Source: Halobellus salinus (GTDB taxonomy: Archaea > Halobacteriota > Halobacteria > Halobacteriales > Haloferacaceae). From it: a stretch of 64,000 bases of DNA. The stretch's first letter is position 1, and each line of letters opens with the position of its first letter. A model generated the notes under the pieces. It saw only the letters and a program-made list of their open reading frames with translations. It did not search any database and was not told the origin of the DNA. The stretch covers positions 62,001 through 126,000 of the forward strand of contig NZ_BMOC01000006.1 in assembly GCF_014646875.1 (NCBI RefSeq). Direction: 5' to 3'. Below are positions 19,893-24,949 of this stretch, piece after piece. The position numbers and the translations under genes were made by a program.

Positions 19893-21224
19893 ATGACTGT
19901 GACGATCGTCGGTTCCCAGCTGGGCGACGAGGGCAAAGGCGCCTTGGTCGACCTGTGGGGAGGCGGCGCAGACGTCGTCGCCCGGTATCAGGGCGGCGAC
20001 AACGCGGGCCACACCGTCGTCGAGGGCGGCGACGAGTACAAACTGTCGCTGGTTCCGAGCGGCGCCGTCCGCGGGACAACCGGCGTCCTCGGCAACGGGT
20101 GTGTGGTGAACCCGCGGACGCTCTTCGAGGAGATCGACGGCCTGCGCGACCGCGGGATCGAACCGGACGTGCGCGTGGGCCGGCGCGCACACGTGATTAT
20201 GCCGTATCACCGGGTGCTCGACGGAATCGAGGAGGAAGCAAAGTCCGACTCGGATCTCGACGCGGGCACGACCGGCCGCGGAATCGGCCCGACCTACGAG
20301 GACAAGGCGGGGCGACGCGGGGTCCGGATCGGCGACCTCTTGGATCCGGAGGTGCTCAGGGACCGACTCGAATACGTGGTGCCGCAGAAGCGCACGCTCG
20401 CGGAGGACGTCTTCGGCATCGAGACCGGCGAGGCGTTCGACGTCGACGCGCTATTCGAGGAGTACCGCGCGGTCGGCGACCGCCTCGCCGAGGAATCCAT
20501 GACCGTCAACGCCGGGGAGTTCCTCGGGAGCCACCTCGACGAGGGCGACGAGCTCCTGTTCGAGGGTGCACAGGGGACCTCGATCGACATTGACCACGGC
20601 ATCTACCCGTACGTGACCTCCTCGAACCCGACCGCGGGCGGCGCGGCGACCGGGACGGGCGTGGGCCCAACGGTCGTCGGCCGCGGCGAGGTCGTCGGGA
20701 TCGTGAAGGCGTACCTCTCGCGGGTCGGCACCGGGCCGCTCCCGACCGAACTCGACGGTGACGACGAGGCGCTGGCCGACGCGATCCGGGAGAAAGGCGG
20801 GGAGTTCGGCACCGTCACCGGCCGGCCGCGACGCATCGGGTGGCTCGATATGCCGATGCTCCGCCACGCCGCTCGCGCCAACGGGTTCACCGGGATCGCG
20901 GTCAACCACATCGATGTCCTCGCCGGCTTGGACGAAGTGAAGGTGGGTCACGCCTACGAGCTCGACGGCGAGGAGCGGTTCACGATGCCCGCGACCACCG
21001 AACGGTGGGGTCGGTGCGAGCCGAACCTCCGTTCGTTCGAGCCCTGGCCCGAGGTCGAGTGGTCGGTCGTCGCCGAGGACGGGTACGACGCCATCCCCGA
21101 GAACGCGCGGGCGTACCTGGAGTACGTCTCCGAAGAGCTCGACGCGCCCACCTACGCTGTCGGCGTCGGCCCCGACCGCGCGGAGACGATCGAACTCGTC
21201 GATCCCTTCGAGACCGGGGCGTAG
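19893..21224 (+). CDS. purA: Adenylosuccinate synthetase
   Basis: This 443-residue protein begins MTVTIVGSQLGDEGKGALVD, which holds the GTP-binding loop and catalytic Asp of PurA. Other diagnostic stretches are GTTGRGIGPTYEDKAGR, LLFEGAQGTSIDIDHGIYPY and FGTVTGRPRRIGWLD. It condenses IMP and aspartate using GTP in AMP synthesis. The start is fixed by the family and by a TTTTAC box 26 nt upstream (19865-19870). The next gene encodes a Trm112-like protein. Confidence 0.97.
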   Translation: MTVTIVGSQLGDEGKGALVDLWGGGADVVARYQGGDNAGHTVVEGGDEYKLSLVPSGAVRGTTGVLGNGCVVNPRTLFEEIDGLRDRGIEPDVRVGRRAHVIMPYHRVLDGIEEEAKSDSDLDAGTTGRGIGPTYEDKAGRRGVRIGDLLDPEVLRDRLEYVVPQKRTLAEDVFGIETGEAFDVDALFEEYRAVGDRLAEESMTVNAGEFLGSHLDEGDELLFEGAQGTSIDIDHGIYPYVTSSNPTAGGAATGTGVGPTVVGRGEVVGIVKAYLSRVGTGPLPTELDGDDEALADAIREKGGEFGTVTGRPRRIGWLDMPMLRHAARANGFTGIAVNHIDVLAGLDEVKVGHAYELDGEERFTMPATTERWGRCEPNLRSFEPWPEVEWSVVAEDGYDAIPENARAYLEYVSEELDAPTYAVGVGPDRAETIELVDPFETGA

Positions 21225-21400
21225 GGGGAGCGCGTCGCCGCGTTCGGAGGGCGGGACGTCTCACCGACAACGGGGGCGAGGTGTGGACGCGGTGGGAACC
21301 CTGAGTGGGGTGAGTCGGGGGGCCGAACGCTCCGCACCCGGTTGTCGGGAGGTGACCAGAATCCGTAGCCTTTTCACCGCCGCTTGCCTTCCAAGACGTG

Positions 21401-21589
21401 ATGAAAGAGTCACTGATGGACATCCTCTGTGACCCCCTCGATAAGAGCGACCTCGACCTCGAAGTCGACGAACGCGACGGCGACGAGATCATCGAGGGAC
21501 GGCTGATCGGCAGCGTCACGGGGGAGGTCTACCCGATCGAGGACGGGATTCCGAACCTCCTGCCCCCGGACATGCGCGACGACGAGTAG
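21401..21589 (+). CDS. Trm112-like methyltransferase activator
   Basis: This 62-residue protein starts MKESLMDILCDPLDKSDLDL and ends with YPIEDGIPNLLPPDMR. This is the Trm112/YcaR pattern, in which a short zinc-ribbon-like fold activates methyltransferases. The usual N-terminal CPxC is reduced to CDP here. In archaea Trm112 partners several tRNA, rRNA and protein methyltransferases. No methyltransferase gene is adjacent, so the partner is encoded elsewhere. A palindromic relic begins 18 bp after the stop. Confidence 0.88.
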   Translation: MKESLMDILCDPLDKSDLDLEVDERDGDEIIEGRLIGSVTGEVYPIEDGIPNLLPPDMRDDE

Positions 21590-21607
21590 CCGTTTCACAG
21601 AAAACTC

Positions 21608-21652
21608 AAGCCGGATGCCCCGAGGCTTGACCCCGAGGCTGCTCACCTGAAC
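21608..21652 (+). repeat. IS200/IS605-like right-end relic, group A, copy 1
   Basis: The core CGAGGCTTGACCCCGAGGCT (21621-21640) forms a small hairpin and is followed by GCTCACC. Aligned over about 40 positions with the minus-strand sequence at 24985-24942, it shares roughly 78% identity, including a 14-nt exact block GGCTTGACCCCGAG. From memory, hairpins of the form GCCACGGGG-loop-CCCCGTGGC followed by GTTCAC close haloarchaeal IS1341/TnpB elements. No transposase is present. Both copies also lie just 3' of a gene, so a 3'-end regulatory element is an alternative. Confidence 0.5.
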
Positions 21653-21671
21653 GCTTTTACACGTCGGTGTC

Positions 21672-22379
21672 GTGGCTATCGACGTGTCAGAGTCGCTCTC
21701 GGTCGAACTGAACGCCGGTTCGGTTCACGCGGTCGACGCTCCCGGGGCGTTCACCGCCCGGGGGCCGTTCCACCTCGAACTCTCGAACACCGGCGGGGCC
21801 GTACACGTCCACGTCAACCTCGACGAGGACCTCTCGCGGGCGGCCCGACTGCGGGAGGTGAACCACTACGTCGAGACCGGCGAGACCGTCCGGATACCCA
21901 TCGGCACGGTGCCGGGTCACGGCGACGTCACCGGTTCTCTCGAGGTCGTCTCGGGGTACGGCGCCGAGCGGGAGCGGATCGAGGTCACGGTTGCCACCGG
22001 CGACCGCACCGACGAACGCGACGGCGGAGGCGACCGCAGTGGCCCACAACGGAAGCGCGGCGACGGCGCCGCGGGTGATCGCGAACCCGCAGCGCGAACC
22101 GCCACCCCGTCCGCCGAGGGACGCTCACCCGACCACCCGATGGAGCGGTCCGCGACCGGGATGGGTGTCCGGGGGCTGGTGAACCGGTCGCTTCCGGACG
22201 TCCTCACCTCGGTCGAGACGACCGCCCGCGAGGGGGCGGCATTCGTCGTCCTCGCCGCGCTCGCAGCGGTGATCGGAATCGCGGTGGGACTGACCGTCGG
22301 CGACCCGCTCCTGTCGCTGGTCGTCGGTGTCGTCGTCGTGTCGACTGTCGGGGTAGCGGGGTGGTTGCTGCTGGGGTAG
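21672..22379 (+). CDS. Membrane-anchored beta-sandwich protein (DUF7524-like)
   Basis: This 235-residue protein starts at a GTG. Residues 1-115 look like an immunoglobulin-like beta-sandwich (FHLELSNTGGAVHVHVNLDE). A disordered linker follows, then two hydrophobic helices at the C-terminus (about 185-210 and 213-234). The soluble domain lacks a signal peptide, so it probably faces the cytoplasm. I believe this is the haloarchaeal DUF7524 family; function is unknown. Confidence 0.78.
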   Translation: MAIDVSESLSVELNAGSVHAVDAPGAFTARGPFHLELSNTGGAVHVHVNLDEDLSRAARLREVNHYVETGETVRIPIGTVPGHGDVTGSLEVVSGYGAERERIEVTVATGDRTDERDGGGDRSGPQRKRGDGAAGDREPAARTATPSAEGRSPDHPMERSATGMGVRGLVNRSLPDVLTSVETTAREGAAFVVLAALAAVIGIAVGLTVGDPLLSLVVGVVVVSTVGVAGWLLLG

Positions 22380-22450
22380 CGGGAGACGGGCCCAAACGCC
22401 AACGCGCGACGTCACGGTGCAGCGGGCCGGTTACGGAGAATCGTGGAGAA

Positions 22451-22482
22451 GGCCCCGTGCTTTAGCGCGGGGAGGATGTCAA
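22451..22482 (+). mobile_element. Solitary IS200/IS605 right end / omega-RNA hairpin, group B, copy 1
   Basis: An 8-bp stem (CCCCGTGC/GCGCGGGG with one G-U pair) with loop TTTA at 22453-22472 is followed by AGGATGTCAA. The TCAA at 22479-22482 matches the right-end cleavage tetranucleotide known from IS200/IS605 elements, and hairpin-plus-GGATGTCAA is the usual end of haloarchaeal TnpB elements as I remember them. No tnpA or tnpB is nearby, so this is a relic or a solo end. Confidence 0.6.
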
Positions 22483-22515
22483 CGGCCAGCACCTGCAGGT
22501 GGCAGACGGCGACAC

Positions 22516-22650
22516 TCACTGTAGATACGATGGTTCCTCGGCGTCGCAGTTCTGCTCGTGGGCCTCGGCGTTGGCTTCGTCATCGAGCAACAGGCCGCAC
22601 TCGTCGCACTCGTACCACGTGCTTCCGTCCCGCTGTACGGTCGAGACCAT
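22516..22650 (-). CDS. 44-aa zinc-finger protein (DUF7128-like)
   Basis: This small protein reads MVSTVQRDGSTWYECDEC and then a LLLDDEANAEAHEQNC tail. Cys-x2-Cys, then His and Cys in a helix (AEAHEQNC), forms a classical C2HC zinc knuckle. I recognise the pattern ending CDAEEPSYLQ as a conserved haloarchaeal small protein, probably DUF7128. A TATA box (TTTTTTATC on the minus strand, about 22668-22676) lies about 22 nt upstream of the ATG, supporting a leaderless gene. Function is unknown. Confidence 0.78.
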   Translation of the reverse strand: MVSTVQRDGSTWYECDECGLLLDDEANAEAHEQNCDAEEPSYLQ

Positions 22651-22759
22651 ACCGTGAAGTTGTTTGTCAGATAAAAAAGCGCTTCCCCGACGGTGGCGGC
22701 CGCGCGTTCGTCCGGTCCACCCGGGCAAGACAAAAGACCGCGGGCGACGAACCGAACGT

Positions 22760-24949
22760 ATGAGCGCGGACGAGGGCCTCGAACTCACAGTTCGCGGGGC
22801 CGAAAAGCGGGACGCCGGCCGGGGGATCGCCCGGCTGCCGGAACCGGTCAGAAAGCGATTGGGTGTCCTCAGCGGCGACACCGTGGTCGTCACAGGGGCG
22901 AGCGAGACCGTCGCGAAAGTGTGGCCTGCCGGCGGTGACACCCCCGACGACGCGATCTTGGTCGACGCCGACACCCGGACGAACGCCGGCGCGAAGATCG
23001 GCGGCGTCGTCACGGTCCGGACGATCGACGTCGACGACGCCCGGTCCGTCACGCTGTCGATGCCCGACGACGTGGCGTTCGAAGACAACGAGCGCGCGGT
23101 CGAACTCATCAAGCGCGCGATCCGGGATCGACCGATCCAGCCCGGCGGCCAGATCCACTTCGAGTCGTTGAGCGCCGATCCGTTCGTGGTGGGGGAGACC
23201 GCGCCGGACGGGATGGTCAGGGTCACCGACTCGACCGAACTGAAACTCTCCACAGAAGGCCGCGTGAGCCGTGTCGTCTCCTCGATCGCGGGCAAAAACG
23301 AGAACGCGGACGCCCCCCCGGCCGGCGGATCCGACGACACGGGGGCCTCGCCGACGATCACCTACGAGGACATCGGCGGCCTCGACGAGGAACTCGACCT
23401 CGTGCGGGAGATGATCGAACTCCCACTCTCCGAACCGGAGGTGTTCGCTCACCTCGGGATCGACCCGCCGAAGGGCGTGCTGCTCTACGGGCCGCCCGGG
23501 ACCGGCAAGACCCTGATCGCACAGGCGGTCGCCAACGAGGTGGACGCCACGTTCGTCGACGTCTCCGGCCCGGAGATCATGTCGAAGTACAAGGGCGAAA
23601 GCGAGGAGAAACTCCGCGAGAAGTTCGCCGAGGCGGGCGAGAACGCCCCGGCGATTGTCTTTTTCGACGAGATCGACTCCATCGCGGGCAAGCGCGACGA
23701 CGACGGCGACGTCGAAAACAGAGTGGTCGGCCAGCTCCTGTCACTCATGGACGGTCTCGACGCCCGCGGGGACGTGGTCGTGATCGGGGCGACCAACCGG
23801 GTCGACACCCTCGACCCCGCGCTGCGCCGCGGGGGCCGGTTCGACCGCGAGATCGAGATCGGCGTGCCCAACGAGCAGGGAAGACGGGAGATCCTCGACG
23901 TCCACACCCGGCGGATGCCGCTGGCCGACGACGTGGACACCGACCGGGTGGCGTCGCGAACCCACGGGTTCGTCGGTGCGGACCTCGAATCGTTGGTGAC
24001 CGAAGCAGCGATGGTGGCGCTCCGGCGCGGTCGCCGCGACGACGCTGACGCGCCGCTCACGGGCCTGCGGGTGACCCGCTCGGACGTCGACGCCGCGATG
24101 GCGGCGGTCGACCCCTCCGCCATGCGGGAGTACGTCGCGGAGTCGCCCACGACCACGTTCGCGGACGTCGGCGGGTTGACAGAGGCCAAGCAAACGCTCG
24201 AACGCGCGGTGACGTGGCCGCTCACCTACGCCCCGCTGTTCGACGCGGCGGAGACGGACCCGCCGACCGGCGTCCTGCTCCACGGCCCCCCAGGGACCGG
24301 CAAGACGCTGTTGGCGCGGGCGATCGCGGGCGAGAGCGGCGTCAACTTCGTTCAGGTCGCCGGCCCCGAACTCCTGGACCGCTACGTCGGCGAGTCCGAA
24401 AAGGCGGTCCGAGAGGTGTTCGAGCGCGCCCGGCAGGCCGCACCCGCGATCGTGTTCTTCGACGAAATCGACGCGGTCGCGACCGATCGCGACGGCGCTG
24501 GCGCCGGCGGTGACTCCGGCGTCGGCCAGCGCGTGGTGTCCCAACTCCTGACCGAACTCGACCGCGTCTCGGACCACCCCAATCTGGTTGTACTCGCCGC
24601 GACGAACCGGAAGGCCGCCCTAGATCCCGCGCTCCTCCGCCCCGGGCGGCTGGAGTCGCACGTCCACGTGCCAGACCCCGACGACGCGGCCCGCCGGGAG
24701 ATCCTCGATGTTCACCTCGACGGCCGGCCGGTCGCCGATGATGTCGATCGCGACGACCTCGCGGCGCGGACCGGGGGGCTCTCGGGCGCCGACATCACGG
24801 CCGTGGTTCGGGAGGCGTCGATGCGCGCGATTGAGGACGTCGCAGGGGCTTACGATGGCGAGGTCGCGAACGACCACGCCGACGAGGTGGTGGTGACGCC
24901 GGATCACTTCGAGGCGGCGCTGAAGCGGGTGGGGTCGTCTGGCGGGTGA
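22760..24949 (+). CDS. CDC48/VAT-type AAA+ ATPase
   Basis: This 729-residue protein has an N-terminal double-psi barrel (about 10-185, LELTVRGAEKRDAGRGIARL) and two AAA modules. Walker A motifs are GPPGTGKT at about 248 and again at about 510; Walker B motifs are IVFFDEIDS and IVFFDEIDA. It is the p97/VAT unfoldase that pulls proteins out of complexes and feeds them to the proteasome. I start it at MSADEG (22760) because the longer frame upstream is not CDC48-like. It is convergent with the Lhr helicase gene. Confidence 0.95.
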   Translation: MSADEGLELTVRGAEKRDAGRGIARLPEPVRKRLGVLSGDTVVVTGASETVAKVWPAGGDTPDDAILVDADTRTNAGAKIGGVVTVRTIDVDDARSVTLSMPDDVAFEDNERAVELIKRAIRDRPIQPGGQIHFESLSADPFVVGETAPDGMVRVTDSTELKLSTEGRVSRVVSSIAGKNENADAPPAGGSDDTGASPTITYEDIGGLDEELDLVREMIELPLSEPEVFAHLGIDPPKGVLLYGPPGTGKTLIAQAVANEVDATFVDVSGPEIMSKYKGESEEKLREKFAEAGENAPAIVFFDEIDSIAGKRDDDGDVENRVVGQLLSLMDGLDARGDVVVIGATNRVDTLDPALRRGGRFDREIEIGVPNEQGRREILDVHTRRMPLADDVDTDRVASRTHGFVGADLESLVTEAAMVALRRGRRDDADAPLTGLRVTRSDVDAAMAAVDPSAMREYVAESPTTTFADVGGLTEAKQTLERAVTWPLTYAPLFDAAETDPPTGVLLHGPPGTGKTLLARAIAGESGVNFVQVAGPELLDRYVGESEKAVREVFERARQAAPAIVFFDEIDAVATDRDGAGAGGDSGVGQRVVSQLLTELDRVSDHPNLVVLAATNRKAALDPALLRPGRLESHVHVPDPDDAARREILDVHLDGRPVADDVDRDDLAARTGGLSGADITAVVREASMRAIEDVAGAYDGEVANDHADEVVVTPDHFEAALKRVGSSGG

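Follow-up and report, generated by a model that had tools for sequence, protein, structure and literature searches.

A putative 48-bp terminal-only IS200/IS605-type element with a single hairpin in Halobellus salinus and its relatives among haloarchaea

TnpA, the transposase of IS608 from Helicobacter pylori, acts as a dimer and uses one hairpin per end; the foot of the right one carries the right guide GAAT. IS608 has the cleavage sites TTAC on the left (C_L) and TCAA on the right (C_R), and its left and right guides read AAAG (G_L) and GAAT (PMC5934647). Closer to the DNA studied here are the terminal-only 52-bp PATEs of Haloquadratum walsbyi, ISHwa23 and HqIRS46 (Dyall-Smith et al. 2011, PMC3119063). 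ISHwa23 has 1,500 bp and a 19-bp repeat and reportedly shrinks to 52 bp; repeat-mediated core deletion is known from Haloquadratum (PMC3119063). The same paper described six strain-specific ISHwa23 insertions, all of 52 bp, and already suggested movement of the short form (PMC3119063).

The window analysed here is a stretch of 64,000 nucleotides from Halobellus salinus. In an earlier note, a solitary TnpB-type right end with an 8-bp stem, a TTTA loop and a TCAA boundary had been described in it. Hairpin and boundary were indeed present at 22453-22482 (Table 1), and one of the eight pairs of the stem is T-G. As single-stranded DNA, 22451-22482 folded with -8.3 kcal/mol (z -2.99), and none of 200 shuffles folded as well. 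The motif TTTAGNNNGGGGAGGATGTCA is expected by chance 0.01 times per window; with up to two mismatches, it was found at 45 sites in the genome, while its reversed control was found at none. The assignment to IS200/IS605 elements of the TnpB type with TCAA as cleavage site also held, as the same succession of hairpin, AGGATG and TCAA was detected after tnpB genes elsewhere in the genome by the search for matching right ends that the note had proposed. The window copy is, however, not a lone right end, since it is joined to a left end and its TTAC target and since the unit recurs as a dispersed repeat. It is complete and two-ended with 48 bp, or 52 bp when the TTAC target is counted. This is too short for a transposase, and in agreement with the note, a family profile search gave no tnpA or tnpB match in the window or on its contig C6.

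Table 1. Features of the 48-bp unit and its neighbourhood (positions in the window).
Feature	Position	Strand	Basis or remark
Flanking gene, 235-aa hypothetical protein	21672..22379	+	ORF; ends 51 bp left of TTAC; order kept in congeners without the element
TTAC target / left cleavage site (C_L), outside the element	22431..22434	+	Found before every left end, in full-length and short copies alike
48-bp terminal-only IS200/IS605-type element (PATE), very probable assignment	22435..22482	+	Genome copies, distinct sites, viral empty sites
Left-end leader GGAGAATCGTGGAGAAGG, 18 bp	22435..22452	+	Left-end alignment
Last four leader bases, AAGG	22449..22452		Position of the left guide AAAG (G_L) elsewhere
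Single subterminal hairpin CCCCGTGC-TTTA-GCGCGGGG, replaces both end palindromes	22453..22472	+	Full-length copy L057 has the same hairpin at its left end
Stem CCCCGTGC	22453..22460		
Loop TTTA	22461..22464		
Stem GCGCGGGG	22465..22472		
Right-end tail AGGATG-TCAA with right cleavage site (C_R)	22473..22482	+	Same tail at the tnpB-bearing right ends of the genome
AGGATG	22473..22478		
TCAA	22479..22482		
Flanking gene, 44-aa zinc-finger-like protein MVSTVQRDGSTWYECDECGLLLDDEANAEAHEQNCDAEEPSYLQ	22516..22650	-	Convergent with the 235-aa gene; 11 congeners have it with 75-86% identity

The unit belongs to the kind that was described in 2011, to which a GC-rich host and a wider distribution are added here. 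Like ISHwa23 and HqIRS46, it measures 52 bp with its target, goes back in all probability to a deletion between near-terminal palindromes, is non-coding and lacks a target duplication (as judged on a viral relative, see below). The host of the window copy, however, is a GC-rich haloarchaeon (65-69%) and not H. walsbyi. With IS608, elements of the window type share TTAC as left and TCAA as right cleavage site, the left guide AAAG at the hairpin foot (though not in the window copy itself, which has AAGG) and, where a full-length copy has its right end, GAAT. In contrast to IS608, the 48-bp unit is gene-less and has one hairpin instead of two and no GAAT at its foot. REP sequences moved by RAYT (TnpA_REP) are likewise short, single-hairpin, dispersed palindromes and are tied to Y1 transposases. 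The unit resembles them in this, but it has TTAC/TCAA ends with a guide in place of their GTAG-type tags.

Nine intact short copies with unrelated flanks were found in the genome, the one in the window included. In these, the left end runs straight into the right tail: TTAC is followed by GGAGAATCG(A/T)GGAGAAAG, one hairpin, AGGATG and TCAA, so that they consist of TTAC, an 18-bp leader, a hairpin and AGGATGTCAA. Their length is 48 bp, or 47 bp in two copies. Six of the first 20 aligned copies had an additional upstream stretch in common, GTTACGGAGAATCGAGGAGAAAG, with unrelated sequence further out, and a search of the genome with this stretch yielded 29 sites. Full-length copies of about 0.34-1.5 kb start after TTAC with GGAGAATCGAGGAGAAAG, a hairpin and ATGAATCC, and a matching right end of GAAT, hairpin and AGGATGTCAA lies about 0.4-1.5 kb downstream of the left end. 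They possess AAAG and GAAT as guides, while the short copies have only AAAG at the hairpin foot and the window copy has AAGG. From the Haloquadratum PATEs, the latter also differs in its hairpin arm CCCCGTGC and in CGTGG for CGAGG. Because its left guide is not AAAG, the window copy is probably immobile by now.

The left and right palindromes of the full-length copies are nearly identical and have direct repeats of 7-21 bp in common. Deletion of the core between them in silico led to a 52-mer every time (TTAC included). From full-length copy L057, this gave exactly the sequence of the short copy L056; from L235, it gave the 52-mer that is most frequent in other haloarchaea. In Haloquadratum walsbyi C23 (G014), three identical 52-mers were found together with a 1,496-bp TTAC/TCAA element whose palindromes have 19 bp in common; its length and repeat length fit ISHwa23. 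We are confident that the window unit, 48 bp long and non-coding, is a terminal-only PATE of the IS200/IS605 type that originated by core deletion from a full-length TTAC/TCAA element. Such an element would lose everything between its near-identical subterminal palindromes, and left-end leader, one hairpin and right-end tail would be left.

A different, gene-less element of 244-245 bp with the ends CTGTCTCTTACCCA and 10-bp target duplications was observed in the host's own genome (L046, L051, L053, L061, L063 and L203-L230). It is located almost always in the loop of an IS605-type hairpin, with TGCTTTAGCG duplicated; two further short copies (L051 and L063) carry a 244-bp MITE in their hairpin loop. 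L203 is one copy outside such loops and has ATGTGACGAT duplicated. Comparable targeting by MITEs and SMR-A is on record (PMC3119063). At G000:C7:98727-99044, one MITE copy is flanked by two left ends of opposite orientation, which is a sign of recombination between MITE-bearing elements.

Among the loci collected from Halobacteria, near-identical copies of the unit occupied 55 distinct sites, 21 of them with a letter-identical 52-mer, and the flanks showed no consensus besides TTAC. An order-wide sample of 392 genomes from 95 genera contained the unit in 28 genomes, which belong to 14 genera. It was present in Halorubrum, Natronomonas, Haloquadratum, Halohasta and other records, plasmids included. 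A contig titled Halobellus captivus ZY8 (L115) was identical at the site to G406 (L180), a genome placed with the genus Halorubrum, which is a naming or contamination issue. Hairpin and right-end tail (query 14-20 to 52) also matched bacterial records at 87-97% (plasmid matches H47-H60 and phage MZ648215.1), namely of Klebsiella, Shewanella, Variovorax and an Escherichia phage; some of them adjoin annotated tnpB or transposase genes. The right end thus occurs in bacteria as well.

A filled and an empty site were found in viruses. The virus OP630575 of Halorubrum lacusprofundi carries the 48-bp unit between ...TATCAC and TGAAAT... (OP630575.1 16048-16097, L140), whereas TATTAC-TGAAAT is uninterrupted in the related viruses OP630574 and OP630576. 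In the alignment of this pair, which concerns a relative of the window copy, the target is present once and not duplicated; units of the window type have no terminal inverted repeats and, as judged on this relative, no target duplication. The filled site reads TCAC where the empty relatives have TTAC, and this is expected to block re-excision. The pair documents a precise insertion, and it is compatible with a longer element having entered first. A scan of viral contigs with the exact pattern gave 0 matches. For the Halorubrum saccharovorum copy L130, the query matched 50 of 52 genomes of its genus, and almost all of these matches fell within the element or its left end. An empty site was searched there as well, but the search was uninformative because only left-flank orthologues were retrieved and these break off short of the site. 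For the plasmid copies H1 and H2, a search of PLSDB with their flanks did not bring up a clean empty site. An all-against-all flank search of the collected loci returned only the same insertion (self or other records) and one alignment of 70%, at the window locus.

This alignment belongs to the congener G007 and runs through the window junction without the hairpin; a junction lacking the element would read TTAC followed directly by CGGCCAGC. The gene pair on both sides, the gene for the 235-aa protein and the convergent zinc-finger gene, was retained in 11 congeners, G007 among them, and the hairpin was absent from all of them. The viral pair and the congeners without hairpin thus demonstrate insertion for the family and make it well supported at the window site, in the intergenic space between convergent genes.

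After the deletion, the short copies would most likely have been moved by TnpA acting in trans. Single-strand excision would take place behind TTAC and behind TCAA, and insertion would follow 3' of a new TTAC and leave the target unduplicated. The genome contains three Y1 TnpA genes, one of which (126 aa, C1:244814-245152) lies inside an element with TTAC and TCAA ends, so that the genome can supply a transposase in trans. For the short form, mobility poses a mechanistic difficulty, since a single hairpin has to stand for both ends and has just the left guide at its foot. Possibly, though with lesser probability, the 48 bp never moved: a full-length TnpB-bearing element would have inserted at 22434/22435 and its core would have been lost in place by repeat-mediated deletion. 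The direct repeats between the palindromes would allow this, and the hairpins follow their hosts, as the short copies of this genome have the CCCCGTGC hairpin of the left ends of its own full-length copies and the short hairpins of Halorubrum are of the Halorubrum type. For HqIRS46, four core deletions at the same site in two strains have been published (PMC3119063). Loss in place is at odds with the letter-identical copies that several genera have at unrelated sites, with the plain 48-bp difference between close viruses and with Haloquadratum HBSQ001, where six out of six strain-specific ISHwa23 insertions had the 52-bp form (PMC3119063). It appears somewhat likelier to us that TnpA moves the 48-bp form itself than that each copy loses its core after insertion, a comparison that rests on one genome per species.

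According to the earlier note, the right end might also be a stand-alone source of omega-RNA or guide RNA that a TnpB encoded elsewhere would use in trans, with the bases past 22482 as guide. The genome indeed has 21 PF07282 matches above cut-off, hairpin and TCAA are those of its tnpB ends, and strong transcription has been reported for another PATE, of 489 bp, in a Halorubrum virus (PMC10544981). The unit resembles the haloarchaeal TnpB omega-RNA/sotRNA (RF02656) in the terminal hairpin and in its position at the right end, but this hairpin is all that remains of the omega-RNA and the upstream scaffold is missing. Published haloarchaeal omega-RNAs possess a pseudoknot and further helices beside the right-end hairpin (PMC12558985). 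The sotRNA model sot0042 (RF02656) matched the tnpB end L016 at 95 bits and others weakly, whereas no match was obtained in 21000-24000 of the window with E up to 1. The comparison of the bases past TCAA with other loci, also proposed in the note, brought nothing above chance either: across the whole genome, the 16 bases matched only themselves and seven places with 1-2 mismatches (reversed control: 73). Since the scaffold is missing, a stand-alone guide RNA is, to judge from these searches, very unlikely. HgcC (RF00062) was considered as a further RNA family and rejected, as its match at the window reached 25.6 bits compared to the Rfam cut-off of 50 bits and probably stems from the common hairpin and tail. 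Sub-threshold HgcC matches were also seen at the tnpB right ends L010, L012, L014, L016 and L041. The 3' part of HgcC, a UUUA-loop hairpin with AGGAGGUCA, resembles an IS605 right end, and HgcC may itself be a TnpB omega-RNA.

That the hairpin is a conserved 3'-UTR structure, a possibility named in the note, or a terminator of a convergent gene would suit its place between two such genes but is hardly credible, because 11 congeners keep these genes without it, units of just this kind are found at unrelated sites and no T-run follows the hairpin.

What had been taken for a lone guide-RNA end is a two-ended micro-element. To the question raised in 2011, whether one-hairpin IS605 remnants are mobilised, it adds data across genera and a filled and empty viral pair. 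We see even chances that the 48 bp are a minimal transposon in the true sense, for which TnpA in trans would excise and insert a 48-nt single strand with one hairpin in both end roles and one guide for both cleavages, and which would spread between haloarchaeal genera via plasmids and viruses. If the short form is mobilised, the two-hairpin model of TnpA transposition needs to be extended, and units of this kind would rank with the shortest known mobile DNAs.
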